Source: Zhaonella formicivorans
Lineage (GTDB): Bacteria; Bacillota; DUOV01; Zhaonellaceae
Reading direction: 5' to 3'
DNA: 64,000 nt
Assembly (NCBI RefSeq): GCF_004353525.1
Contig: NZ_CP085524.1
Coordinates: 2,514,142 to 2,578,141, forward strand
Part shown: one piece after another, positions 49,246 through 64,000 of the stretch
How positions within the stretch are numbered: position 1 is the first letter of the stretch
Layout: each line of letters begins with the position of its first letter
Notes under the pieces: model-generated
Told to the model about the DNA's origin: nothing
The model's database searches: none
What the model saw: only the letters and a program-made list of their open reading frames with translations
Made by a program: the position numbers and the translations under genes

Positions 49246-49923
49246 TTATGGTTTAACCTTACAGTTCTCACAAAACTGTACGATTTCAACTTTATCACCG
49301 TTTTTTAAAGCAGCTGCGTTGGCTTCGTCCACATCCAAGTGCATTTCCAACCTGTAATTTTCGCTTACCCTGATTAACACCTGTGAGAAGACTACTCCCC
49401 GGGGCCCGGTAGCTTTTACATTAACCCGGTCACCGTCTTTTACCCCAAAGCGCCTGGCATCAGTGGTATGCATGTGGATGTGGCGGGCGGCAACAATGCA
49501 CCCTTCTTTCAGAGTGACTGAACCTGCCGGCCCCACCATGGTTATTCCGGCTGAACCCTGCAGGTCCCCTGAATCACGGATAGGGGCCTGCACCCCCAGC
49601 TTGAAAGAGTCAGTAATTGAAATTTCTACCTGCGACTGTTTACGGGCAGGACCCAGCACCCGGACATTTTCTATAACCCCTCTTGGACCTACCAGAGTCA
49701 CCTTCTCTTCACAGGCAAATTGCCCAGGCTGGGAAAGATCTCTCCATTTTGTCAACTGGCTATTCGGACCGAATAGACGTGCTAGGTGGCCAGTTCAGAG
49801 GTGGACATGCCGGTTGGAAATCCCTAAAGGGATTTTTCCTTCTCCTTTTTCCTCCCGCTGCTGCGTCGTCAAGTGCTCCAAAACCACTTGCCTGACCACC
49901 GCTTCCAGTTGTTCCTTGTTCAC
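49246..49923 (-). CDS. pduL: Phosphate acyltransferase PduL with in-frame TGA
   Basis: 225 codons from a GTG (49923) with AAGGAAGG upstream. N-terminal helix, then IPLGISNRHVHL, TGA at codon 43 (49797-49795), then in the same frame TGHLARLFG, QLTKWRDLSQPGQFA and the second PduL beta-barrel with HIHMHT. PduL makes acetyl phosphate from acetyl-CoA. Both halves are in one frame with no other stop or shift. The TGA falls right after the His-x-His zinc site, where relatives usually have a small polar residue. It may be a nonsense mutation or a selenocysteine codon. A TTG at 49755 could give only a truncated product. Confidence 0.85.
49755..49794 (-). other. Hairpin directly after the pduL TGA (candidate bacterial SECIS)
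   Basis: In mRNA sense: ACTGGC and GCCAGT arms enclose CTATTCG-GTC-CGAATAG. The apical GGTC starts 25 bases after the TGA, within the range known for bacterial SECIS, and E. coli fdhF also shows GGUC at its tip. It could equally be chance coding palindromy. Confidence 0.35.
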
Positions 49924-49955: not shown

Positions 49956-51401
49956 TTACCCTTGCAGTTGGGCTAAAACCTGCTTCACAATGGCTGCCAC
50001 ATCGTCGGGGGTGAACTTAGCCCCTTGGGTTTTGGACGAGGCAGCAGTGTCAACTTGCTTCAGACCGTAAGCTAGCCGTTTAATGTTGATCAAGTGAAGC
50101 GGCGTCACGTTATCGGAAGTGCTGCTGCCCCCCAAAGTGCCGCAGCCTAGAGTCAGGGACGGCGCCAAACCGGTAGTAAATCCTACTCCGCCAAGGGAAG
50201 AAGGAGTGTTGACCAGAATGCGGGAAACAGGCTTCCTGATAAATTCCCTGATAATCTCCTCATTCTGAGAGTGGATAGCAAAGCTGTGACCAACCCCCAT
50301 CAGGTTTAAAAGCTCTATGGCAAGAAGGCATGCTTCTTCCCAGTTTTTTACAACGTAAAACGCCACCACGGTTGTAAGTTTTTCGTAAGATAAGGGATAA
50401 CCCGGCCCGTATCCCTCCAGGGGAGCGATCAATAGCCGTGTGCCTTCCGGAATGGCAATGCCCGCTTTTTCTGCAATTATTTTAGGTGTTTTGCCCACCA
50501 GGGCTGCATTCATTTCTCCCTTGGGAGTCATTACCACCCGGCTAACTTTGTCAACCTCTTCCGGATTCAAAAAATATGCGCCCTGCGCTTTAAACTCCGC
50601 TATAACCTCTTCTTTAATTGGTTCATCCACTATAATGGAGTTTTCGGATGAGCAGATTACTCCGTTATCAAAAGTCTTGCCGGTGATAATATCACTGACT
50701 GCCTGCTTGATGTTAGCTGAACGCTCTATAAAAGCCGGGACGTTGCCGGCGCCCACACCGTATGCCGGCTTGCCGGCGCTGTAAGCTGCCTTGACCATCC
50801 CCGGGCCGCCGGTGGCCAAAATGAGAGCAATATCCTCATGTTTCATCAGTTCCTGGGTTGCTGCCATGGTAATCTTGGTCAGGCAGCCGATTATGCCCTC
50901 AGGCGCTCCGGCCTTGACTGCCGCCTCGTGCATTACCTGGGCCGCTGCATTGGTACATCTGGCCGCATTAGGGTGTGGCGCAAAGACGATGGCGTTGCCG
51001 GACTTCAGAGCAATCAGGGACTTATAAATGGTGGTAGAAGTGGGGTTAGTGGAAGGTACTATCCCCATCAGTACTCCCATTGGGGTCCCCACTTCGATTA
51101 CCTTCCGTTCCTTATCTTCCCGCAAAACCCCCAAAGTCTTCATGTCCTTGATGTATTCGTAAACATTTTTGGCAGCAAAAAGGTTTTTGGTTACTTTGTC
51201 CTTAAATACTCCAAATTTGGTTTCATCCACCGCCATCCGGGCCAGCCATTCTGCATTGGCTTGGGCTGCTTCCGACATGGCAGCTACAATCCTGTCGATT
51301 TCCTCCGGGGAATATTTGGCAAAAGCCCTTTGGGCTTCTTTAGCTTTCCGGGCTAAATCCCTGGCATCCTGGATTGAACTCAAATCATAATCAATTGCCA
51401 C
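49956..51401 (-). CDS. eutE: CoA-acylating acetaldehyde dehydrogenase EutE/PduP
   Basis: About 481 residues. It oxidises acetaldehyde to acetyl-CoA inside the shell. Catalytic Cys is in DNGVICSSENS, with PSTNPTSTTIYK and LATGGPGMVKAAYSAGKPAYGVG for cofactor binding. The C-terminal helix FTPDDVAAIVKQVLAQ, after a flexible link, looks like an encapsulation peptide. The GTG at 51401 with GGAGGGAGGAAACAGG is preferred over a start 42 codons earlier inside the previous gene. Confidence 0.93.
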   Translation of the reverse strand: MAIDYDLSSIQDARDLARKAKEAQRAFAKYSPEEIDRIVAAMSEAAQANAEWLARMAVDETKFGVFKDKVTKNLFAAKNVYEYIKDMKTLGVLREDKERKVIEVGTPMGVLMGIVPSTNPTSTTIYKSLIALKSGNAIVFAPHPNAARCTNAAAQVMHEAAVKAGAPEGIIGCLTKITMAATQELMKHEDIALILATGGPGMVKAAYSAGKPAYGVGAGNVPAFIERSANIKQAVSDIITGKTFDNGVICSSENSIIVDEPIKEEVIAEFKAQGAYFLNPEEVDKVSRVVMTPKGEMNAALVGKTPKIIAEKAGIAIPEGTRLLIAPLEGYGPGYPLSYEKLTTVVAFYVVKNWEEACLLAIELLNLMGVGHSFAIHSQNEEIIREFIRKPVSRILVNTPSSLGGVGFTTGLAPSLTLGCGTLGGSSTSDNVTPLHLINIKRLAYGLKQVDTAASSKTQGAKFTPDDVAAIVKQVLAQLQG

Positions 51402-51417
51402 CCTGTTTCCTCCCTCC

Positions 51418-52008
51418 TTACGGTCTAATGTTACTACCAGGTCGAATTTCAGCTTTATGCGCCCGTAGAATTTCCGTAATAAGTTGCTCTTTATTGGCCT
51501 TGGAGATTTGTCTGCCGTAGATGGCAATACCCTCGGTTTTGCGCGCCATCCTGCGCAGTTCCCCCACTGTCAGGGACTGCAAGTAGATCTCGCTGGGCAC
51601 AAGCCGGTTTTGCTGTAGTGGGTTGATTCTTTTGTCCTGAGGGAATAAATTGGCATTGTCTTCTGCTGTACATCCCGGGCCAGGGCCTTCTCCTCCCGGG
51701 CCCGGAGCGGAAGGATTGTTATCCGGCTCCGCATCTTCTTCCTGGAAAAGCATCTCCAGGTCTTCCGCGGGCCTGGGGATAACATGCCGGCTGATGAGCT
51801 GACCGATCTTCTCAGCGGCAGCGCTTCCGGCGCTTATCGCAGCCTGCACGGCCGCAACCTCTCCCGTTACTGCCACCATTATCAGTCCACCGGTTACTTT
51901 TTCATATCCCAAAAGTGTAACTTCCGCCGTTTTTGTTGCAACGTCCGCCGCTTCAATAGCTGCCACCAGCCCACGGGTTTCGATCATCCCCAGTGCTTGC
52001 AGTTTCAT
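51418..52008 (-). CDS. BMC shell protein with C-terminal Rho_N-like domain
   Basis: 196 residues. Residues 1-90 are a standard hexamer-type BMC domain (ALGMIETRGLVAAIEAADVATK, GLIMVAVTGEVAAVQAAISAG, SRHVIPRP). Then an acidic, Pro/Gly-rich linker with one cysteine. The end, about 143-186 (LQSLTVGELRRMARKTEGI, KANKEQLITEILRAHK), resembles Rho N-terminal/SAP-type helical domains. EutK also joins a BMC domain to a helical nucleic-acid-binding-like domain, so this may be its counterpart. Which face of the shell it occupies is unknown. Confidence 0.85.
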   Translation of the reverse strand: MKLQALGMIETRGLVAAIEAADVATKTAEVTLLGYEKVTGGLIMVAVTGEVAAVQAAISAGSAAAEKIGQLISRHVIPRPAEDLEMLFQEEDAEPDNNPSAPGPGGEGPGPGCTAEDNANLFPQDKRINPLQQNRLVPSEIYLQSLTVGELRRMARKTEGIAIYGRQISKANKEQLITEILRAHKAEIRPGSNIRP

Positions 52009-52027
52009 CAGTTCAACCCCTTTTAGG

Positions 52028-52251
52028 CTATCTCGAAAATAGCTATAACGTTTAATGTCCTGTCGCTCCCACTGTCTGAATCAAGAGCACCAACTGCTCG
52101 GTGCCGGACTTCCAGCGGCACGCGGTGATGCGACATCCTGTCGCTCCACCGCTCTCGCGGCGTCCGTGCCGCTCGTCCGCTTTCAGTCCTTGTCCTCGCA
52201 GGGTGCTCTAAGGATTCAGCCAAAGGTCACTGCCACGGGCATAAACGTTTA
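52028..52251. repeat. ~222-bp multi-hairpin element, copy 2, inside the operon
   Basis: Near-identical to 35126-35346, including the AACGTTTA/TAAACGTT ends and the GAATCAAGAGCACC / GGTGCTCTAAGGATTC inner pair. It separates eutM from the BMC/Rho_N gene. Between 52252 and 52346 nothing else is seen. Confidence 0.92.
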
Positions 52252-52346
52252 GCTGGATTTAACTGTGCTGCTAATGCTGCGAAAGCAGCATGGGCGTCTA
52301 CCTTGAAAATCTTAACCCTAGTGTCTTGTAAACTCAACCACTTGGC

Positions 52347-52637
52347 TTACTTAGCCAATTTTTTGTAATCGTCGGGCAGGATCATCTCCACATCGCTGTG
52401 GGGCCTTGGGATGACGTGCACCGAAATAAGTTCTCCAACCCTTTGGGCAGCTGCGGCACCTGCGTCAGTGGCAGCTTTTACGGCCCCTACGTCTCCGCGG
52501 ACCATAACAGTAACCAGACCGCCGCCCACGTGAACTTTGCCGATTAGGCTGACATTTGCAGCTTTGACCATCGCATCGGCTGCCTCAATTGCTCCCACCA
52601 AACCTTTTGTTTCAATCATTCCTAACGCGTTATTCAT
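52347..52637 (-). CDS. eutM: Hexameric BMC shell protein EutM/PduA type
   Basis: 96 residues, a single canonical BMC domain: [43 protein letters not shown] and [13 protein letters not shown]. These form the flat hexamers that tile most of the shell, with the pore at the KVHVGGG loop. AGGAGGAATTGAG precedes the ATG. The multi-hairpin element follows its stop. Confidence 0.95.
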
Positions 52638-52660
52638 CTCAATTCCTCCTTAAGATAATA

Positions 52661-53350
52661 TTATTGTTTATTGGACAATTCCGCCCAGTTGGCGGGATAG
52701 GTTACAAAGAAAAACTTCACTTTATCCGGCGTGGAGAAGGTAATATGGGTATCCTTGGGAATGTAGAACACATCCCCTGCTCTTCCCCGGTAAGTTCTGC
52801 CGTCTACAGTAATTTCCAAGGTCCCTTCTATAATATAGTCGATTTCTTCGTACCCCAGGGTCCACTCAAAGCTGCTTTTTTCCATGGTCATAAAGCCTGT
52901 GGCGAGGTTAGGGCTCTCTTTTCCGGAAAGGATCTCCCGGATACCTACCTTGTCCTTGGGATTGCCTGTATCGAATGCTTCGCATTCCACGGTTTCGCCC
53001 CTCACAAGACGAATCCCGCTGGGATCAGCTTCTTTTACAATTTGCTTTGGTCCCTGCAGTTGGGGAAGGGAGGCAATTACCTGCTGCACTATTTTGGAGA
53101 TAAGCCCGGGGTCGATGCCCTGGAAATTAACAGCCCGAGGCTCTACTCCGTCCTCAGAGACATTCTCCACCGGGCCACAGCAAGATACTTTCGCCGGCAC
53201 CGGGACGGAACCAAACTGCAAGGAAACTCCGAACTCGCCGGCAGCATCTTTAGCCGCCGGAGTGACGATAGTTCCCGGTTCCAGATAAATGGTTTTTTGC
53301 CCTGAACCAGCGTAGTTCTTAATGTCGTTAACCGTAACCAACTTCTTCAC
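52661..53350 (-). CDS. eutQ: EutQ cupin protein
   Basis: 229 residues. N-terminal IYLEPGTIVTPAAKDAAGEFG region and a C-terminal cupin (EWTLGYEEIDYIIEGTLEI, then GRAGDVFYIPKDTHITFST). EutQ is needed for anaerobic ethanolamine use in Salmonella, and acetate kinase activity has been reported for it. With PduL it could convert acetyl phosphate to acetate and ATP (inference). GTG start with GGAGGTGAAAAA. Confidence 0.92.
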   Translation of the reverse strand: MKKLVTVNDIKNYAGSGQKTIYLEPGTIVTPAAKDAAGEFGVSLQFGSVPVPAKVSCCGPVENVSEDGVEPRAVNFQGIDPGLISKIVQQVIASLPQLQGPKQIVKEADPSGIRLVRGETVECEAFDTGNPKDKVGIREILSGKESPNLATGFMTMEKSSFEWTLGYEEIDYIIEGTLEITVDGRTYRGRAGDVFYIPKDTHITFSTPDKVKFFFVTYPANWAELSNKQ

Positions 53351-53429
53351 TTTTTCACCTCCTAAGCAGGTTGTGTTTGTTTTGTAATTTTGTAAGCAAA
53401 CAATTAAACCGCCTAAAATATCAGGTTCG

Positions 53430-53978
53430 CTACATAATGCTGGGCACCAGATTCCGGTGGGGTGAAGGAATAACCACCTTGTTTAAGAGCAGCCCTTTCT
53501 CAGCTGCCGAAGCTGAGCCTGCTTCCACTGCAGCTTTTACCGCGGCCACGTCCCCGGTCAAAGTCACAAATGACTTGCCTCCAATGCCCGTACCCAAGCG
53601 TATTTCAATGAGATCAACTTCAGCTGCTTTAACCGCCGTATCGGCAGCTACAATCAAGGAAGCTATGGAAAAAGTTTCGATTATACCCAGAGCCTGCATA
53701 TCTACAGCCGGAGTTGTGGCACTTATTGCCGGGATTACTGCCGGGTGAACATTGGGCAGGATAAATTCGTCGACTACCGCTGCCTCCCCCAAATTTACCC
53801 CCGCCCGCACCGCACTCTCCACAGCTGCCACATCACCGCTGATGAGCACAATGTATTTACCGGGACATATGGGCCGGGATGTCAAGATTTCCACCTGGGC
53901 CGACTTGAGCATGGCGTCGGCCGCTTCTATTCCTTTGGCAATGCTGTTTAGCTCAACTAAACCTATAGCAGTTAACAT
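53430..53978 (-). CDS. Tandem BMC trimer protein, PduT-like without the Fe-S cysteine
   Basis: 182 residues, two BMC domains (about 1-88 and 93-182). It aligns along its length with PduT, including SRPICPGKYIVLISGD and GIGGKSFV. In PduT, Cys108 (ETWSVAACIS) holds a [4Fe-4S] cluster in the trimer pore. The matching segment here reads ETFSIASLIV, with Leu at that position, so the cluster ligand is gone. It overlaps pduS by 7 bases. Confidence 0.9.
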   Translation of the reverse strand: MLTAIGLVELNSIAKGIEAADAMLKSAQVEILTSRPICPGKYIVLISGDVAAVESAVRAGVNLGEAAVVDEFILPNVHPAVIPAISATTPAVDMQALGIIETFSIASLIVAADTAVKAAEVDLIEIRLGTGIGGKSFVTLTGDVAAVKAAVEAGSASAAEKGLLLNKVVIPSPHRNLVPSIM

Positions 53979-55312
53979 TCCTTAGCCGCCTCCCTGTCCC
54001 TGGTTTCAATTACAATACAGTCTGTTATAGCTGTAATAACCCCGCTGATGCTGGCATGTATGTTGGCCCCTAAAGCTCCTTCCTTGGTCCGGGCAATTTC
54101 TGCCCCTTTTTCCACCCATTCTCCTACGTCCACCGTCGGTTCCGCCGGGGCGCCGATATGTTGCTGTAAGGGTATTGTGACTTTTTTAGGCTTAAATTCG
54201 ACTGCCGTAAGTGGCGCCGGGCAATCATATCTTGTGAGTCCCATTCGAATGATCAACCTTTTAACAGGTATCTTTTTATACTCCCTGGTCAATTCCGGGA
54301 CGGGGGATTGGGAGGCGGACTCAAGTTTGATCCCCTTTTGGGCCAGTTCCTGCTTTAATGCTGCATTGACCTGACGGGGGGATAATTCCATGGGGCAACC
54401 GTACTCACAGGCTCCGCACTCGCTGCACAAAAGGCTCATCCGGACCACTTGCTCATCTCCCCGCAGGTAGTTCAGAGAACACATGATTTTATGCGGCTGC
54501 AACCGGTGGCCAAGCATATACCGCGGGCAAACATCAGTACAGCGGCTGCATTGGATGCAAGCGGCCTTGGACCTCCTTAGCTGGTGAGCCAGGGAGAGTT
54601 TTTTGCGTTGCACCAAAGGATGGGCTTCGGGCAAAACTATTATTCCCTTAGTTGTTTTAGTAATGGGCGCACCCACATCAGCAACCACCTTGCCCATCAT
54701 GGGCCCTCCTTCAATTACCACCTTGCCTGCCAAATCTTTCAGCCCCGCCAGCGCCAAGGCTTCCGCAATAGAAGTCCCAATAGGCAGTTTCACTGTGATG
54801 GGCTTTGGCACTTCCCCTGTCACAGTCAAAAAACTATCGGTTACCGGGGCCCCCTCCAAGGCATTGGCTATGTTGATTAATGTCTCCACATTGCTGACTA
54901 CACAGTTTACTTTCAGCGGGATGCCACCCTCAGGCACAACCCTTTTTACTACCTCGTAAACAGTCACGTGTTCATCGCCGGCCGGGTAAAAATCCCCCAG
55001 GGTAAATAATTTGACCGGCCTCCCTTTTATCTCTTCCGTTAAAGCCTCTTTGGCCGCCTTGTACTTAGCTTTGAGAGCAATGACCCCCTGGCTGGCTCCG
55101 GTAGCTTCCATGACCGCTTCCAACCCTTTAACTACTTTCGCGGCCTCAAACTGCATCAGCTGCTGGTCAACCCGCAGCAGCGGTTCGCATTCGGCACCAT
55201 TTACGATTACTACCTCTGCCGGGGCACTGACCTTCACATGGGTGGGAAAACCCGCCCCTCCTGCGCCTACTATCCCTGCTTCTTTAATTAATGCAACAAT
55301 ATCCTCGCGCAC
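53972..55312 (-). CDS. pduS: PduS-type cobalamin reductase (RnfC-like)
   Basis: 446 residues. RnfC-like N-terminus (GIVGAGGAGFPTHVK, VNGAECEPLL), an SLBB segment, two [4Fe-4S] motifs CIQCSRCTDVCP and CSECGACEYGCP, and a C-terminal barrel (VDVGEWVEKGAEIARTKEGALG). PduS uses FMN and iron-sulfur clusters to reduce cob(III)alamin for re-adenosylation by EutT/PduO. A Pdu-type part in an otherwise Eut locus. GTG start with GAGGTGAGGCTTA. Confidence 0.93.
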   Translation of the reverse strand: MREDIVALIKEAGIVGAGGAGFPTHVKVSAPAEVVIVNGAECEPLLRVDQQLMQFEAAKVVKGLEAVMEATGASQGVIALKAKYKAAKEALTEEIKGRPVKLFTLGDFYPAGDEHVTVYEVVKRVVPEGGIPLKVNCVVSNVETLINIANALEGAPVTDSFLTVTGEVPKPITVKLPIGTSIAEALALAGLKDLAGKVVIEGGPMMGKVVADVGAPITKTTKGIIVLPEAHPLVQRKKLSLAHQLRRSKAACIQCSRCTDVCPRYMLGHRLQPHKIMCSLNYLRGDEQVVRMSLLCSECGACEYGCPMELSPRQVNAALKQELAQKGIKLESASQSPVPELTREYKKIPVKRLIIRMGLTRYDCPAPLTAVEFKPKKVTIPLQQHIGAPAEPTVDVGEWVEKGAEIARTKEGALGANIHASISGVITAITDCIVIETRDREAAKEC

Positions 55313-55327
55313 TAAGCCTCACCTCGA

Positions 55328-55597
55328 TCAGGCCTTTTCCTGATTTTCATCTATAATGCCGACAATCATGGCATCTACCGGAACATTTTCGAAGCCTTTC
55401 ATCCGCCTGGCAGAACTGCCCTGGGTGATTAGCACCCTTTCACCAATGCCTGCCCCTATCAAATCTGCTGCAACGATAATTTTGCCTTCTCCTTCCACCG
55501 GCGTATCCAGCAGTTGGACAATCATGAGCTTAACACCCACCAGGGATTCATCTTTGCGCGTTGACCAGATGCTGTTGATAACCCTGCCAATAATCAT
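55328..55597 (-). CDS. eutN: Pentameric shell vertex protein EutN/CcmL
   Basis: 89 residues, the BMC-vertex fold (MIIGRVINSIWSTRKDESLVG, KLMIVQLLD, IVAADLIGAGIGERVLITQGSSARR). Five copies cap the shell corners. AAGGGGTGGTTAA precedes the ATG. It overlaps nothing and lies 16 bases before pduS. Confidence 0.95.
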   Translation of the reverse strand: MIIGRVINSIWSTRKDESLVGVKLMIVQLLDTPVEGEGKIIVAADLIGAGIGERVLITQGSSARRMKGFENVPVDAMIVGIIDENQEKA

Positions 55598-55655
55598 TTA
55601 ACCACCCCTTAAGAAGCCGCCTTTTCCCTTCTTGTCTTTGGTTTTGCCGCGTCAA

Positions 55656-55949
55656 TTATGGACCACAGTTAAAATGTTGCTGTATGGCCTTTAAAGCTGC
55701 TTCCACTGCCGCGATGTCTCCAAAAACAGCAATCATGGTGATATGTTGCGGACAAATGCCCCGGACCTCTTCAACCGCTACCTGGGCTGCTTTTTCAGCT
55801 ATATCGGCTGCCATCAGCATTTCCGCCAGCTGCCCTTGTACCAGCCCCACAGCGCCCGGGGGGTGCTCGCATAGGGTTCCGTTTGCCATGCGCCTGGCCA
55901 AAATGGCCATAGTCCCGGGGGAGGGAGATTTGATAAACTCAATCTTCAC
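55656..55949 (-). CDS. Short BMC-domain shell protein (permuted type)
   Basis: 97 residues. An N-terminal strand segment (MKIEFIKSPSPGTMAILARRM) precedes the BMC core (AVGLVQGQLAEMLMAADIAEK, CPQHITMIAVFGDIAAVEAAL). The strand order suggests a permuted or variant hexamer protein, as in EutS/PduU relatives, but it is distinct from EutS in this operon. GTG start overlapping the eutJ stop (GTGA), so translation is coupled. Confidence 0.82.
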   Translation of the reverse strand: MKIEFIKSPSPGTMAILARRMANGTLCEHPPGAVGLVQGQLAEMLMAADIAEKAAQVAVEEVRGICPQHITMIAVFGDIAAVEAALKAIQQHFNCGP

Positions 55950-56788
55950 CGGTTAGCCACCTGGCCTTTTTGCACCCAGAGGGCAATTCCCAATGGGGTT
56001 ACCAAAAATGGATTTTCCGGCTTGTATGTAGGTATGCCTACCTCCGCTTGCACCACCTGCTCAATGCCGGGGAAGCAGCTGGTGCCCCCGGCCAGATAAA
56101 CAGCCTCCACGGGAAACTTGCGGATATGACTTCCGATAATAGCCGCTACCTTTTGCATGACCGGTTTCACCACGGGAAAAAGCTCCTGTTGCCTGGCCGG
56201 ATCGGTTTTTAGCCTTTCCGCTTCTTCAAAGGGGATTTTATAAGCACCGGCGACCACCAAGCTAAAATGGGTTCCCCCTGTTGGTTCGTCCGCTACGTAA
56301 ATGACTTTGCCGTCCTGTAAAACGGCAATGCCGGTTGTCCCTCCTCCTATATCCACCACGGCCCCGTTCCTAATCCCCAGTACCTGATTTGCTGCCGTAG
56401 GTTCATCCACCATAGTTTCAACTTCAAATCCTGCCGACTCGGCCACGTAACGGATAGCCCGCTGGTCCCCTTCCATGGTTCCTGGCGGGTAAGCAGCCCC
56501 GGCGCATACAAGTTCTTGCCCAATTCTCTCTTCCAGGTGGGCTTTAAGCTCTTTCACGATACCTACTGCTCCCACATAATCCACTACCAGTCCGTCCCTG
56601 ACCACCTGGGCAAAACGCATGGCTCCGGCTACCGGTTTCCCTTCGGCATCTACCACAGCCAGCACGATGTAGGCTGTACCCAAATCCACTCCGGTGTAAA
56701 GCTCCATTCCTTTAGCCACCGGTCTGGGTTTGGCCAGGGTAGCTTCATATTCACCGATAAGCTGATTAGCGTTATTTAAAGATTCCAT
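55946..56788 (-). CDS. eutJ: EutJ, actin/Hsp70-fold chaperone-like protein
   Basis: 280 residues of the ASKHA fold: phosphate-1 YTGVDLGTAYIVLAVVD, phosphate-2 AVVDIGGGTTGIAVL and adenosine loop VYLAGGTSCFPGIEQ. EutJ is proposed to help assemble or keep ethanolamine enzymes; its role is not firmly established. It overlaps the next BMC gene by four bases. Confidence 0.93.
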   Translation of the reverse strand: MESLNNANQLIGEYEATLAKPRPVAKGMELYTGVDLGTAYIVLAVVDAEGKPVAGAMRFAQVVRDGLVVDYVGAVGIVKELKAHLEERIGQELVCAGAAYPPGTMEGDQRAIRYVAESAGFEVETMVDEPTAANQVLGIRNGAVVDIGGGTTGIAVLQDGKVIYVADEPTGGTHFSLVVAGAYKIPFEEAERLKTDPARQQELFPVVKPVMQKVAAIIGSHIRKFPVEAVYLAGGTSCFPGIEQVVQAEVGIPTYKPENPFLVTPLGIALWVQKGQVANR

Positions 56789-56825
56789 TATTAGCTCTCC
56801 TATCCGACCGGTCTTACTCAGCCGC

Positions 56826-57578
56826 TCAGGAACCGATATGATACTTCCCTGCAGCCAGTTGTACCATCAGCACGTAGATCAGGCTGCTCAGCCTGTTCAA
56901 TGCCTGGATGATGTCCTCCCGCTCCACCTTGCCCTCACCTACATAAAAGGCATCCATAGCCATGAGTTCCAGTTCCCTGACTTGGGTCCTGAGGATATTC
57001 AACTGGGCCATTATTTTACCCTGTCCCGGGTTGGGCAAAAGGTGTCCCACTCCAAAATGCTTTTTGGGATAATGGGAAAACTGGTGGATCTCCTCCTGGG
57101 ACCAGCCGCGGAAAACAAGCGCCGCCAGCGGCTCTTCCTTGACTTCCGCCGCCAGTATTTGGCGTACATACTCCAGCACATCCCGCAGGTCCCGGCCCAG
57201 TTCGTAATATCCCAGGCTTTCAACATCGATGATGGCGGTAATGAGGACCGCCTCAAAACTGTCCAGTTTGCCCCGAAACTTGATGCGAGGGTGGTTTTTT
57301 ACCACCAAGGTTGTGCCCCTGAGGTGGGTCATGTGCTCCGGTTTCTTGCCCCCCACCCCTGGCGGAGGATAGTTTTCCTCCTGTACGGCACCCGAAGTTT
57401 TTGGGTACGGCTTACCGCTTTTTGGAGATGGGACGCCGGGGGTGATCACCTGGATCCTGCGCTCGCTTAAAAACTGGCTGGCAGCAGGCGTCAGCCTGCA
57501 GTCCGCAGGCAATTCATAGGAGGTGAACTCTGCTTTTTTATATTGCTCTCTCAGTTCTGCTTCAGTGATAATTCGCAT
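56826..57578 (-). CDS. eutT: Cobalamin adenosyltransferase EutT, cysteine-less variant
   Basis: 250 residues. N-terminal helix region, then THLRGTTLVVKNHPRIKFRGKLDSFEA and the C-terminal helix bundle (ELELMAMDAFYVGEGKVEREDI). Makes adenosylcobalamin for EutBC. The Salmonella enzyme has H-x11-C-C-x2-C for metal binding; here only a single cysteine (Cys27) exists in the whole protein, so that motif is absent. GGAGGTGGAAAGAAG precedes the ATG. Confidence 0.9.
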   Translation of the reverse strand: MRIITEAELREQYKKAEFTSYELPADCRLTPAASQFLSERRIQVITPGVPSPKSGKPYPKTSGAVQEENYPPPGVGGKKPEHMTHLRGTTLVVKNHPRIKFRGKLDSFEAVLITAIIDVESLGYYELGRDLRDVLEYVRQILAAEVKEEPLAALVFRGWSQEEIHQFSHYPKKHFGVGHLLPNPGQGKIMAQLNILRTQVRELELMAMDAFYVGEGKVEREDIIQALNRLSSLIYVLMVQLAAGKYHIGS

Positions 57579-57616
57579 CTTCTTTCCACCTCCTTATAGG
57601 AGTATTTACCCTCACC

Positions 57617-58273
57617 TTAACTGTCCTTAGGGTTACGGGCTACAGCCAGCACAGTGTCGCGGAAAGCCTCGGCTGCTGCCTTGCAGGCGCTTTGAGAACC
57701 GGTTAAGAGGCCTCCGCCGAAGTTAGTTCTGGTGGGCGGTCCAAACCAGGCAGCCATCCTTACGTCGGCCGCTTTGAGAGCAGCATCTACGCCATAGACA
57801 GACTCTATAGGCGGCGCAATAAGGTATGCCAGCGATTCCCCTTCATTAATGCCGGCCATTTTTGAAAGATAAGAACCGGTGCGGGAAATTGTATAGGCGT
57901 AGAAACAAATCTTTCCTTCTTCATCCGCCGTATAAAAACATGCATCTTCGTTGATCAGCTGCACCGCTGCCGCAATGCCCGCTTTTACTTCAGCGGGGTT
58001 GGGCCCGGCCAGTATGCCAATAAATTCTCCCGCCAGCGGCGTGGAGGCATTGGCAGCGCCAGCATAAAATGAATCAGCGTAGACTACCTCGACCACAGCT
58101 TTCTTGGTGGCCTCGTCCAGCGCAGTATAAGCCACATCGTCAATATTGCAGGTAAACATGCCGATACTTCTTTGGTCAGGCCGGAGTTTCAAGCTTTCAG
58201 CCAGTCCCGGCGATACGTTGGGAATAAATTTTACCGCTAATACCTCCGCCCTGATGGGCTCTAAAATTCCCAT
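57617..58273 (-). CDS. eutL: Tandem BMC trimer shell protein EutL
   Basis: 218 residues, double BMC domain of the gated-pore EutL class: LAVKFIPNVSPGLAESLKL, IGMFTCNIDDVAYTALDEATK, VVYADSFYAGAANASTPLAGE, RTGSYLSKMAGI and AAWFGPPTRTNFGGGLLTG. EutL trimers form large openings that can close. GGAGGTTAGCGAT precedes the ATG. Confidence 0.95.
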   Translation of the reverse strand: MGILEPIRAEVLAVKFIPNVSPGLAESLKLRPDQRSIGMFTCNIDDVAYTALDEATKKAVVEVVYADSFYAGAANASTPLAGEFIGILAGPNPAEVKAGIAAAVQLINEDACFYTADEEGKICFYAYTISRTGSYLSKMAGINEGESLAYLIAPPIESVYGVDAALKAADVRMAAWFGPPTRTNFGGGLLTGSQSACKAAAEAFRDTVLAVARNPKDS

Positions 58274-58315
58274 ATCGCTAACCTCCTTCTTCTATTTAGT
58301 TACTGTCCTGAAATC

Positions 58316-59764
58316 TTAAGCCTTTAAATTCTTTTTACCCGAACTTTCAAATACCAGCGTTTTAACGACTACCGGAACTACCCTTCCCCCCAGGAGCGGC
58401 TTTCCAATATCAATGTAATCCCCTTCATCCACCTGCACCTGGTCAATGCATACTATTTCCGCCCCCTGCTTAAGTCTTAGCTGCAGACATTGGCCCAAAA
58501 CTTTGGCACAATCCTTCTGCAACACCAGCACTAAGGGCCTTTTACTCTGTAGATAACCCTCCATACCCTGGACAATGCCATCGGCCAAAACCTCTATGTC
58601 TGCAAACGTTTCAGTGCGCGGCCCCTCAATGGAGAGAGCCACATGCTGGGCCGAGCCGTCCTGGGTAAGTCGCTCTACACACCTTTGCAGCTCCGCCGCT
58701 ATTTTTTCTCGGGTTTCCGGCGTACCGCCGGCAAAAGGGGAAACTACTGTTACATTGCGCAGCGGCAGTGTGGACTCGTTAACATGAATGGTGCTGCCGC
58801 TAATATTCACCGAATGGGTCCCCGCACCGATCACCGTTGCTCTGATGGTCTCCACCGGTTTAGCAAGCTCAATCCCTCGCGCCTGAAAAGCCTCCCGCAA
58901 CGACCAGCCCAAGAGGGGTCCAATATCTCCATAACGTGAAATATCGGAAACAGCGAGCGGGGTATAGTCGCTGTAGACATAGTCAGCCACCCCGCCGGAA
59001 ATCATCACTGTTTCTACTGGGTAATCCAATCTTAACGGTGCTGTCATCAGAAGCTCCCTGGTTAGCTTGGCAAGCTCCCTGGTGGTCACTGCTTCCACCA
59101 CGCAGCGGGCCATTGCTGCCGTCACTGTTTTCAGCTGCTGCAATGTGACCCGGTCACCGGGAGAGAGCCCCAGCCCGCATTCCCGCAGCACTGCCCGGGC
59201 CGGTTCAGCAATGTAAGTAATGCTGTCACCGTGACGGGTAAGTTCAATTAAACGTCCCCCGATATTTAAACAAGCGGTGTCAATAGTTCTTCCTGCCTTA
59301 AACACTCCGATATTGGCTGTACCCCCGCCCACATCGATGTTCACGGTTACCCGGTGCTTTTCCTTGGAGAAGCTCGCTGCTCCCGAGCCCTTTCCGGCCA
59401 GGATGGATTCCAAATTGACTCCCGCCGTGGCTACCACAAAGTCGCCTGCCAGGCCGGCCATGGCCTCCAGGATATTCCTGGCATTTTCTTTTTTCGCCGT
59501 CTCTCCGGTGATAATGACTGCCCCGGTATCAATTCCCTCCGGCGAAAGCCCCGCTGCCCTGTATTCATCCTGCACTATTTTAGAGATGGCTACCGCATCG
59601 ATGAGCTGGTGGTCCAAAAGGGGTGTGAAATATATCCGGCTTTTATACAAAACCTCTTTATCCGTAATCTCCATACGAGGCACTGCCGCCCCGGGAGCAG
59701 TATTTTTTATTGTTAAACGGCTGATAACTAATTGGGTGGTAGTGGTGCCGATGTCAATGCCCAC
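58316..59764 (-). CDS. eutA: Ethanolamine ammonia-lyase reactivating factor EutA
   Basis: About 482 residues. ASKHA fold with SVGIDIGTTTTQLVISRL, NIDVGGGTANIGVFKAG and MISGGVADYVYSDYTPLA. EutA exchanges damaged B12 from EutBC using ATP. The GTG at 59764 with AAAAGG eight bases upstream is preferred over a GTG three codons earlier. A REP element lies just upstream, between it and eutC. Confidence 0.94.
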   Translation of the reverse strand: MGIDIGTTTTQLVISRLTIKNTAPGAAVPRMEITDKEVLYKSRIYFTPLLDHQLIDAVAISKIVQDEYRAAGLSPEGIDTGAVIITGETAKKENARNILEAMAGLAGDFVVATAGVNLESILAGKGSGAASFSKEKHRVTVNIDVGGGTANIGVFKAGRTIDTACLNIGGRLIELTRHGDSITYIAEPARAVLRECGLGLSPGDRVTLQQLKTVTAAMARCVVEAVTTRELAKLTRELLMTAPLRLDYPVETVMISGGVADYVYSDYTPLAVSDISRYGDIGPLLGWSLREAFQARGIELAKPVETIRATVIGAGTHSVNISGSTIHVNESTLPLRNVTVVSPFAGGTPETREKIAAELQRCVERLTQDGSAQHVALSIEGPRTETFADIEVLADGIVQGMEGYLQSKRPLVLVLQKDCAKVLGQCLQLRLKQGAEIVCIDQVQVDEGDYIDIGKPLLGGRVVPVVVKTLVFESSGKKNLKA

Positions 59765-59828
59765 GCTAATCACCTTTTGAATATGTGCACTCTCTATTTA
59801 ACTCACCACCTTCAACCCACACTTGATT

Positions 59829-59877
59829 GGGGACATTCCTCGCACAACCCTATTTCACGCATAGAGGTGGCGTCCCC
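59829..59877. repeat. 49-bp REP-like element between eutC and eutA
   Basis: GGGGACATTCCTC, then CGCATAGAGGTGGCGTCCCC. It is the inverted copy of the element at 33275-33324, with conserved ends and a variable middle. It can fold into a GGGGAC/GTCCCC hairpin in the operon mRNA. Confidence 0.85.
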
Positions 59878-59893
59878 TTTCCTCTTCCGCGGT

Positions 59894-60808
59894 TTAAGCT
59901 TTGGTAAGGTTGATGCCGCTGGCTTTGGCAGCCAGGACCTGCTTAATCAAGTCCACCAAATGGGCGCCTGCTTCCGCGGGAGGAGTCCCGCCCCTGTGAA
60001 TATTGGAAATCATGGTCCGGTCTGCCTCCACCGTCTTTTCCGTAGGACGGTAAATAATATAGGCACTCATGCTTTCTGCTGAGGCGAGGCCAGGTCTTTC
60101 CCCGATGAGGGAGATCACTACTTCGGCATTTAAGAGCATACCTACCTGGTCCTGCACTCCCACCCGACCGTATTTTACAAAGAAGGGAGTGCCTACCTCT
60201 ATCCCGGCAGCCGTTAACCCTTGAATCAGTACCGGTAACACCTCGGGCACATTGGCCTCGATAGCCGTGGAACTCAAACCGTCTACTACCAAGATCTGCA
60301 CTTGCACGTTCTTTTTGCATTTTTCCAAAATTGTCTTTTTTGCCTCTTCTGAAAGCTTGCGGCCCAAATCGGGGCGCTTTAAAAACTCATCCTGGTCCTT
60401 AACAGCTGTTTGCACCGAGAAGAGGTTCATTCTCTTTAAAAATTCCTCTGAGACATCCAGGAATACGGCATCCTGGGCCACCGCATGGTCAGCCATAAAG
60501 CGCAAGAGCGCCCCTGTCTTCGGCCTGGCGCCGGCCCGGTAAAGCCCGATCCTGGCCGGTGTAGCCTTTTTCATAGCCTGTAAAGCTTCCAGGTTGGCCG
60601 GTTGCGGCACCCATACCTCGCTGATGTCAGGCAGAGTAATTTCCTCGTCGCTGCAGGCACTACAAACTACTGTTGGCTCCGACCCAACCGGCACACTTTT
60701 GGCTCCGCTTTCGCCTTCAGCCGGACTGCCTCCCAGGAGACCTCTCCTTGCCAGTTCTTTCATCACACTTTCCACAATCAACTTTTCCATTTGATTTTCT
60801 GCTGCCAT
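59894..60808 (-). CDS. eutC: Ethanolamine ammonia-lyase small subunit
   Basis: About 304 residues. The N-terminal helix (EKLIVESVMKELARRGLLG) and disordered linker may target the shell. The catalytic core has ARIGLYRAGARPKTGALLRFMADHAVAQDAV, RPDLGRKLSEEA, VVDGLSSTAIEANVPEVL and LIGERPGLASAESMSAY. It forms the adenosylcobalamin enzyme with EutB. The ATG at 60808 has AGGGGG eight bases upstream. A second eutC-like gene lies at the window's end. Confidence 0.95.
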   Translation of the reverse strand: MAAENQMEKLIVESVMKELARRGLLGGSPAEGESGAKSVPVGSEPTVVCSACSDEEITLPDISEVWVPQPANLEALQAMKKATPARIGLYRAGARPKTGALLRFMADHAVAQDAVFLDVSEEFLKRMNLFSVQTAVKDQDEFLKRPDLGRKLSEEAKKTILEKCKKNVQVQILVVDGLSSTAIEANVPEVLPVLIQGLTAAGIEVGTPFFVKYGRVGVQDQVGMLLNAEVVISLIGERPGLASAESMSAYIIYRPTEKTVEADRTMISNIHRGGTPPAEAGAHLVDLIKQVLAAKASGINLTKA

Positions 60809-60824
60809 CCCAGTCACCCCCTAA

Positions 60825-62189
60825 TTATTTGTCAAAAATGGAAGGATCGCCCGCCAGTTTGGTGAGCCTGCCATTCTCCATCAGTCCCATTTTTTCCATC
60901 CATTTTTCAAATTCAGGCAGTGGCCTTAGACCCAGGATTTCTCTCACGCTGGCATCATCATAGTAGCTGGTGTCCTGGTAGCTGAGCATTACGTCATCCC
61001 CGCCGGGAACTCCCATGAAATAGTTGGCGCCGGCCATGGCACACAGCATGGTCCCTATTTCCTGATCATTCTGATCCGCTTTCATATGGTTGGTGTAGCA
61101 CGGGGCAATACCCATGGGCAGCCCGTGCAGTTTGCCCATGAAGAGGTCCTCCAGGTCAGCCCTGATCACTTCCCGACCGTCGTAAATGGTCTCCGGCCCG
61201 ATAAACCCGGACACGTTGTTCAGCATAAATGGCCTGAATTTGCGGGCAAAGCCGTAAGTCCTGGCCTCCAATGTCATTTCATCCACGCCATGATGGGCAT
61301 CAAGGGAAAGTTCGGAACCCTGACCGGTTTCAAAGTATAAAAGATTTGGCCCGGTCCCGGTCCCTTTGCGCTGGGCCAGAGCCAGTGCCTCATCCAGCAG
61401 CGCTTCGGAAACCCCGAACGCTTCGTTGGTCTTCTGGGTGCCCGCAATGCTTTGAAATACCAGGTCAGCAGGCGCTCCCAGCTCGATGGCCTTCATCTGG
61501 GTAGTCACATGGGCCAGGACGCAGTTTTGGGTGGGAATGTCCCATTTGATCATAAACTCTTTAACTGCTTCCAAAATTCTGGCCACTGTATCAGCGTTAT
61601 CATCCACCGGGTTGATGCCGATAACTGCATCCCCAGAACCGAAAGTAAGCCCTTCTTTAACCGAAGCCATAATCCCCGGGATGCTGTCCGTGGGGTGGTT
61701 AGGCTGGTTGCGGAAAGCAAGTGTCCCCGGAATTCCGATGGTGGTGTTGCAGTGTGCCTGGGTGCGCATTTTTTTGGAGGCGTAAACCAAATCCATATTG
61801 GACATTAGCTTGGCAACGGCAGCAATCATTTCGCTGGTCAAGCCGCGGCTTAAGTGCATTAAAGCTTCATGGTCCGTATCATGGTCCAGGATGTAGTCCC
61901 TGAGCTCACCTATCGTCCAGCTTTTGAATTGGTTATAGATGTTAATGTTCAAGTTATCATAGATTACCCTTGTAACCTCATCTTCTTCGTAGGGTATGAC
62001 GGGGTTGTTATAGATATCTTCCAACGTAAGGTTGCTTAAAACCAGTTTGGCAGCAACCCGCTCCGAAGCCGAGGTGGCGGCAATCCCTGCCAGGACGTCC
62101 CCCGACTTTTCCTCGTTGGCTTTAGCCAGTACTTCTTTGACTGATTTGAAAGCGAATGCTTTATTGTAAACTCTGGCTTTTAAAATCAC
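60825..62189 (-). CDS. eutB: Ethanolamine ammonia-lyase large subunit
   Basis: 454 residues, full length. Family segments: VYNKAFAFKSVKEVLAKANE, HCNTTIGIPGTLAFRNQPNHP, LTFGSGDAVIGINPVDDN, QKTNEAFGVSEALLDEA, LYFETGQGSELSLDAHHGVDEMT and NVSGFIGPETIYDGREVIRADLED. Splits ethanolamine to acetaldehyde and ammonia by a radical mechanism with EutC. GTG start with GAGGAGGTCGCTTAC. Confidence 0.97.
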   Translation of the reverse strand: MILKARVYNKAFAFKSVKEVLAKANEEKSGDVLAGIAATSASERVAAKLVLSNLTLEDIYNNPVIPYEEDEVTRVIYDNLNINIYNQFKSWTIGELRDYILDHDTDHEALMHLSRGLTSEMIAAVAKLMSNMDLVYASKKMRTQAHCNTTIGIPGTLAFRNQPNHPTDSIPGIMASVKEGLTFGSGDAVIGINPVDDNADTVARILEAVKEFMIKWDIPTQNCVLAHVTTQMKAIELGAPADLVFQSIAGTQKTNEAFGVSEALLDEALALAQRKGTGTGPNLLYFETGQGSELSLDAHHGVDEMTLEARTYGFARKFRPFMLNNVSGFIGPETIYDGREVIRADLEDLFMGKLHGLPMGIAPCYTNHMKADQNDQEIGTMLCAMAGANYFMGVPGGDDVMLSYQDTSYYDDASVREILGLRPLPEFEKWMEKMGLMENGRLTKLAGDPSIFDK

Positions 62190-62213
62190 GTAAGCGACCT
62201 CCTCTCAAAGCAT

Positions 62214-62651
62214 TTAATCCCATTCCAGCAACTTTCTAAGCTCGTCTATCCCCTCTCCCGTCCAAGCTGACACGGCAAGTATCGGGCCTTTTAATGCAAG
62301 TTTCGTTAAAATCTCTTTAGCCCGCTCCACTTGGGCTTTCGGGTGGTCGGTTTTAGTCACGATTCCTAAGGTTTTTTTCGGAAAAGCCTGGGCAAACCCA
62401 GGAGGAAATGAAGATTCCTCCCGCGTGGCATCTTGGATGAACAGCACTGCATCCGCTTCCAGCGAGGTAGCAAAGAGAGCCCGGTAATAAAAAGGGTTCT
62501 CCAAAAATTCGCCGGGGGTATCTATGGAGCGGGAGTGATACTCGATGGCCTGGGTCTTGGTAACAGGCCCTTCCTTTTGAGTCAGAGCCTTCATCAAAGA
62601 CGTTTTGCCCGATCCCACCGCACCCACCAGCATTACCCGCGGTTTCTTCAT
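62214..62651 (-). CDS. eutP: EutP/PduV-family small GTPase-like protein
   Basis: 145 residues with Ras-like motifs: P-loop [10 protein letters not shown] (9-18), switch [14 protein letters not shown] for guanine and SAWTG. EutP has been linked to acetate kinase activity in some species and PduV to shell positioning; the role here is not certain. Start ATG overlaps the eutS stop (ATGA), so translation is coupled. Confidence 0.92.
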
Positions 62652-62992
62652 GAGCGGGTCATCCTGGCGGCGGTGAAATTAAGCTGTTCCTCCAGCACCC
62701 CGTTGACCTCTTTTAAAGCAGTTTCCACACTGGCCACGTCACCCACAATGACCAGTGTGCCGCTGAACCTGTCCAAAAAGCCGATTTCCACTTCCGATGC
62801 CTTTGTGGCAATATCGGCCGCGATTATCACTGTCTCTCCGGGAGTAAGGGTAAGAATGCCAATGGCTCCTTTGTCTTCAAGCCCTAGCTTTTCAAAAATC
62901 GCTTTTACCGGATGGGCAATTACATGGGCCAAAGTAACCTGTTTACCAGGTACATACTCTTGAATCAACCGCTGTTTTTTCTCCACGTCCAC
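62648..62992 (-). CDS. eutS: Permuted BMC shell protein EutS
   Basis: 114 residues: [67 protein letters not shown]. EutS hexamers are bent and sit at shell edges. GTG start; AGGAG is 12 bases upstream, a little far. First gene after the structured leader. Confidence 0.94.
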
Positions 62993-63379: not shown

Positions 63380-64000
63380 CTATTCCAAATTCACTCCTGA
63401 GGCTTTTTTATCCAAAACCTTCTTCAATAGGGTGACTAAATATGCTCCCGCTTCCGGCGCAGGGGTACCGCCTTTGTGGATGTTGCTGACTACCGTTCTT
63501 TCGCTTTCGATCATTCCCTGTCTCGGGTTATAGGCCAGATAAGCGCTTAAGCTTTCAGCGGTGCCAAGTCCCGGTCTCTCACCCAGGAAAATAATGGCAA
63601 CTTTAGGTTTCAACTCTTCTCCGATGACATCCATCACCGCTACCCTCCCGTATTTGACAAAAACAGGAGTGCCAATCTTTATACCCATACCACTTAAACC
63701 TTGCATTAAAGCAGGGAGCAAATCGGGGAGATTTGCCTCCACGGCCTTGCTGGATAACCCGTCGGAGACAATGATTTGTACATCGGCTCCTTTTTGAAAT
63801 GACTTTCGCAGCTTTTCCAAACTCTCCGTCGACAACTTCCTGCCCAGGTCCGGTCGGGTCAAATATTCATCCTTATCCCGGCAGGCGCTTTGCAGCTTGA
63901 CTAAGTTTAACTTTTGAATAAATTCCTCTGAAACTTCACTCAGCACGGCATCCTGGGCGGTAGCATGGTCAGCCCGGAAGCGCAACAGAGTTTCTGTCAA
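63380..64000 (-). CDS. eutC: Second ethanolamine ammonia-lyase small subunit (partial)
   Basis: 206 residues visible and still open at the window edge, so the N-terminus is missing. It aligns along its length with the eutC at 59894 (LLRFRADHATAQDAVL, RPDLGRKLSTES, VSDGLSSKAVEANLPDLL, GTPVFVKYGRVAVMDVIGEEL, FLGERPGLGTAESLSAYLAY) but differs at many positions, so it is a paralogue rather than a recent duplication. It lies upstream of the leader and probably follows a second eutB outside the window. Confidence 0.93.
   Translation of the reverse strand: MTETLLRFRADHATAQDAVLSEVSEEFIQKLNLVKLQSACRDKDEYLTRPDLGRKLSTESLEKLRKSFQKGADVQIIVSDGLSSKAVEANLPDLLPALMQGLSGMGIKIGTPVFVKYGRVAVMDVIGEELKPKVAIIFLGERPGLGTAESLSAYLAYNPRQGMIESERTVVSNIHKGGTPAPEAGAYLVTLLKKVLDKKASGVNLE

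Follow-up and report, generated by a model that had tools for sequence, protein, structure and literature searches.

An in-frame TGA in the microcompartment pduL gene of Zhaonella formicivorans, most likely a one-off nonsense change or a sequence error

The pduL gene and its operon

The window analyzed here is a stretch of 64,000 nucleotides from Zhaonella formicivorans (contig NZ_CP085524.1, positions 2,514,142 to 2,578,141) and belongs to a genome assembled as a single 3.31-Mb contig that is 99% complete. It carries a complete eut microcompartment operon (Table 1). As the preliminary description of this DNA had proposed, pduL is the last gene of its operon. The operon runs in the order eutP, a shell gene, eutB, eutC, eutA, a eutL-like gene, a cobalamin adenosyltransferase gene, a eutJ-like gene, shell genes, an RnfC-like gene, eutQ, shell genes, a eutE-type aldehyde dehydrogenase gene and pduL; eutP, eutB and the first shell gene were named from their sequence rather than by profile search. 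A second eutC-like frame (63380-64000, minus strand), distinct from eutC at 59894-60817, runs off the end of the window and possibly marks a second ethanolamine ammonia-lyase set next door. An acetate kinase gene follows the same operon end in a Thermincola ferriacetica MAG (L023) and in HGW-Firmicutes-14 (L025); no acetate kinase-like frame was present among the listed frames downstream of pduL in the window.

Table 1. Features of the pduL locus (positions in the window)
Feature	Position	Strand	Remarks
pduL/eutD (phosphate acyltransferase) frame, interrupted once	49246..49923	-	GTG start; 226 codons including internal and terminal stops
N-terminal extension of ~30 residues (VNKEQLEAVVRQVVLEHLTTQQREEKGEG)	49837..49923	-	Position of the encapsulation peptide of microcompartment PduL
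In-frame TGA, codon 43, directly after His-Val-His-Leu	49795..49797	-	Ser/Thr in 104/111 homologues
SECIS-like hairpin	49755..49794	-	Lower stem ACUGG (49794-49790)/CCAGU (49759-49755); upper stem CUAUUC (49776-49771)/GAAUAG (49765-49760); loop GGUCC (49770-49766)
eutE-type aldehyde dehydrogenase, intact, immediately upstream of pduL in the operon	49956..51527	-	
Remaining ethanolamine microcompartment operon, frames open	51418..62992	-	BMC shell genes, eutQ, RnfC-like (pduS-like), eutJ, cobalamin adenosyltransferase (eutT role), eutL-like, eutA, eutC, eutB, eutP

Translation of the pduL/eutD frame revealed one internal stop only: the protein begins VNKEQLEAVV, reads ISNRHVHL up to the stop and TGHLARLFGPNSQL directly after it, and ends with CENCKVKP. 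With an X placed at the stop, the frame matched the Pfam PTAC family (PF06130) at 7.5e-81 over model positions 2-175 of 176 and the NCBIfam phosphate propanoyltransferase at 2.2e-85, which indicates that it is a PduL without a frameshift; the match to the solved PduL 5CUO was 5e-61. A search of the genome likewise returned the interrupted gene as one match flagged '1 TGA'. These results bear out the earlier account of a full PduL in a single frame from 49923 to 49246, free of shifts and of any second stop, in which the sole interruption, at codon 43, directly follows the Leu of the zinc-binding HVH-L motif. In alignment with 5CUO, the frame contains the full PTAC domain and the zinc ligands HxH, Glu, HxH and His. 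The protein thus resembles the PduL/EutD of catabolic microcompartments (PF06130; 5CUO, Rhodopseudomonas palustris) in its whole PTAC domain, its complete set of zinc ligands, its N-terminal extension and its position as the last gene of a eut operon, but 5CUO and the family have Ser (HIHLS) where this PduL has TGA. Judged by its position, the N-terminal extension may be an encapsulation peptide like that of the solved protein (PMC4784909). The C-terminus carries a short extension with a CxxC motif (QFCENCKVKP; 49246-49290, minus strand) that is absent from the orthologues.

Two intact PduL paralogues lie elsewhere in the genome, one near ileS and the other near a feoB-like gene. Both look like non-microcompartment copies, as the stretch before their PTAC domain is shorter.

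The interrupted gene was also inspected for decay. Comparison with orthologues relied on dN and tree branch lengths only, since synonymous sites are saturated and dN/dS could not be used. PduL retains 61 of the 63 positions conserved at ≥85%, and its end branch in the protein tree measures 0.14, versus 0.59 for the orthologue in G001, a genome of the same family. No frameshift, other stop, excess of changes or other sign of relaxed selection was found in the pduL frame, a picture with which a very recent event is still compatible. With no second lesion, no acceleration and these positions kept, an inactive gene would have to be very young, or else the gene is not inactive.

The TGA position in PduL homologues

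To place the stop codon in the family, homologue columns were read from a profile alignment; a motif-only scan missed most homologues. At the column of codon 43, the 111 distinct homologues carry Ser (83), Thr (21), Ala (4), Gly (1), Asp (1) and Cys (1), and none of them has TGA. The single Cys homologue (L093) uses the codon TGC. The syntenic orthologues nearest in sequence all have an ordinary Ser codon: TCT in G001 (L146/L022), where the gene stands beside the same aldehyde dehydrogenase gene, TCC in the Thermincola ferriacetica MAG and TCT in HGW-Firmicutes-14. Two other members of the Zhaonella formicivorans family were among the genomes compared. Of the roughly 155 strongest PduL matches in 398 genomes of the phylum, the pduL studied here is the sole one to contain a stop.

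The search was extended by a DNA motif scan (HxH-x-TGA-six codons-[L][F/Y]G) of 398 + 379 + 391 genomes (~1,170), the second set being built around a deltaproteobacterial MAG and the third around Maledivibacter. Among the 398 phylum genomes, the motif occurred in this genome alone, and no second TGA-containing PduL was found in the ~1,170 genomes scanned. Three further pattern matches from the second and third sets (L152, L153 and L154) were discarded, as their translation showed that they are not PduL.

Cys homologues are known for almost every selenoprotein (PMC13188914). The criteria of the Sargasso Sea selenoproteome work were two or more Cys homologues together with two or more TGA-containing sequences, and clusters with a single TGA sequence were treated as mere candidates that might reflect sequencing error (PMC1088965); the pduL TGA, with one Cys homologue and one TGA sequence, falls short on both counts. 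The preliminary description had expected Cys or TGA in this column of relatives if the residue were selenocysteine (Sec), an expectation that fails almost completely. In the solved PduL, His48, His50 and Glu109 bind Zn1 together with the CoA sulphur, His157, His159 and His204 bind Zn2, and Ser45 and other residues contact CoA (PMC4784909). The TGA column corresponds to residue 52 of that structure, two residues past His50; residue 52 is absent from the listed Zn and CoA ligands (PMC4784909). PduL, PTAC and microcompartments receive no mention in the main text of a 2026 review of the prokaryotic selenoproteome (PMC13188914).

Selenocysteine machinery and the hairpin downstream of the TGA

The Zhaonella formicivorans genome decodes TGA as selenocysteine. 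It contains selB (C1:2634016-2635905), a tRNA-Sec gene (C1:2633791-2633883) and, adjoining selB, a selA-like frame (L143 7917-9326) identified by its sequence and location. One in-frame TGA in the known Sec site context is present in selD and in each of two fdhA genes. This search, which the preliminary description had called for, therefore removes absence of the machinery as a quick refutation, and the selenocysteine idea cannot be dismissed on that ground. The selD gene (L140, C1:2511176-2512102), which lies a short way upstream of the window, encodes a selenoprotein in its own right, with its TGA after YAKAAG and a hairpin 16 nt downstream. The two fdhA genes (C1:3300989-3302983 and 2849995-2851992; L132, L133) have 6-bp GGUCU SECIS hairpins at 18 nt, which served as the in-genome yardstick for the pduL hairpin. 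Directly upstream of fdhA, at C1:3299858-3300193, a short segment with an internal TAA matches the N-terminus of FdhA and may be a gene end or a remnant.

A SECIS-like hairpin does follow the pduL TGA, its loop beginning 24-25 nt after the stop codon. The GGUC loop and its distance were described correctly before; the outer and inner arms as first written cannot both form in full, as they share one base. The lower stem leaves a 13-nt one-sided bulge, and an alternative pairing of the upper stem gives 7 bp closing GUC. The minimum free energy (MFE) is -11.7 kcal/mol, with z-scores of -0.45 (60 nt) and -1.30 (51 nt), so that the fold is not exceptional. Fold stability was rejected as proof of a SECIS, since the genuine SelD element scores +1.17 and z does not discriminate. 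Published bSECIS constraints require a loop of 3-9 nt with G in its first two bases, a stem of at least 4 bp, a distance of 16-37 nt from the UGA and an MFE of -7.5 or lower (PMC13188914). The pduL hairpin passes them (6-7 bp, loop GUC or GGUCC, 24-25 nt, -11.7 kcal/mol), but the model discriminates weakly: of the 1843 TGA triplets counted over the two strands of the window, 227 (12.3%) pass as well.

Narrower criteria set the hairpin apart, with reservations. Among 1842 TGA triplets in the window, the pduL TGA is the only one followed by a GGTC loop of no more than 6 nt on a stem of 5 bp or longer; part of this rarity is due to coding, because the family-invariant Leu-Phe-Gly puts GG exactly 24 nt past codon 43 in nearly every PduL. 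When the PduL peptide is recoded synonymously, 2.2% of the sequences form a 6-pair GGTC hairpin (1.2% with Watson-Crick pairs only); for recodings of homologous peptides the figure is 0.1% (0.01% with Watson-Crick pairs only). These percentages flatter the hairpin, as the criterion was chosen after it had been seen. No such hairpin occurs in any of the 111 real homologues. The residues under the hairpin (T44, A48, R49, N54 and S55) lie within the most atypical stretch of the protein, codons 42-57, where local atypicality ranks 2 of 112. Relatives with an ordinary Ser codon rank 3 (L025), 8 (L028) and 9 (L023) in the same stretch, and part of this signal is therefore shared ancestry. Like the two fdhA SECIS elements, the pduL hairpin follows an in-frame TGA and has a 6-bp upper stem capped by a GGUC(U/C) loop, but its stem is A+U-rich and its fold weaker (upper hairpin -4.8 versus -8.2 and -10.1 kcal/mol). 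Its loop lies 24 nt from the TGA, compared with 18 nt in fdhA and 16-18 nt across the three known Sec genes of the genome, and the PduL family lacks a Cys/Sec column, unlike the fdhA case. Taken together, these figures make the hairpin a suggestive coincidence, at the level of 0.01-2%, and not proof.

Origin of the TGA codon

The TGA in pduL is most likely a one-off change, by nonsense mutation or by sequence error. We consider it probable that a conserved Ser/Thr codon of a microcompartment PduL (EutD) became TGA through a recent nonsense mutation in this strain. As in other genes disabled by a nonsense change alongside intact paralogues, there is one premature stop in one genome only, with paralogues and orthologues intact; this pduL differs from the usual case in having no accompanying decay and, as it is not decaying, a disabling mutation would be very recent unless the base is a consensus error. 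The second possibility, an intact gene whose codon 43 is really Ser, is appreciably less likely, though it ranks ahead of the other alternatives: a single isolated change in an otherwise undecayed gene is what an error looks like, whereas the single-contig, nearly complete assembly argues against it. Consensus errors are more commonly of other types than a C-to-G or two-base substitution, which was likewise counted against an error.

Of the two readings put forward in the preliminary description, Sec or nonsense, a nonsense change is the better supported, and the Ser/Thr column weighs most heavily against Sec. Under the Sec reading, the hairpin would serve as the SECIS through which SelB decodes the TGA, and a selenol would lie two residues away from the second His that binds Zn1. 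Such a PduL would be a lineage-specific selenoprotein, a non-redox zinc-dependent phosphotransacylase in which a conserved Ser/Thr, not Cys, was exchanged for Sec beside the Zn1 site and an fdhA-like SECIS arose inside the gene. The selA-selB-tRNA-Sec cluster with its TGA-containing selD and two fdhA genes, the conformity of the hairpin to the bSECIS constraints (PMC13188914), its resemblance to the fdhA elements and its rarity in recodings and homologues, the peak of atypicality exactly over codons 42-57, the active-site neighbourhood of the stop and the undecayed gene all speak for this. We nevertheless regard it as improbable, given a Ser/Thr column with a single Cys and no TGA homologue anywhere searched, the looseness of the formal bSECIS model, the longer spacing and weaker upper stem than in the known cases of this genome, the atypicality partly shared with Ser-codon relatives, and an enzyme that is not a redox catalyst. 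Selenium-independent leaky readthrough, which would give small amounts of full-length PduL alongside a 42-residue peptide, is very improbable: the part after the stop still seems to be under intact selection, but no homologue shows such readthrough, no independent readthrough signal was found in the gene, and recency explains the intact sequence more simply. The order in which we place these four explanations reflects judgement and not computed posteriors.

Under a nonsense mutation, translation would end after 42 residues, leaving little beyond the putative encapsulation peptide and the first active-site strand, and a downstream in-frame restart could not restore the HxH zinc ligands. The two intact paralogues could allow the cell to tolerate the loss of the operon copy.

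Were the TGA decoded as Sec, PduL would constitute a new selenoprotein family and, so far as the searched literature goes, the first one in a microcompartment enzyme; Sec would here have arisen from Ser instead of Cys. If it is not, the locus is a warning that genuine Sec machinery, an in-frame TGA by an active-site motif and a hairpin of SECIS shape can turn up together by chance, since the published bSECIS model passes about one in eight of the TGAs in the window.
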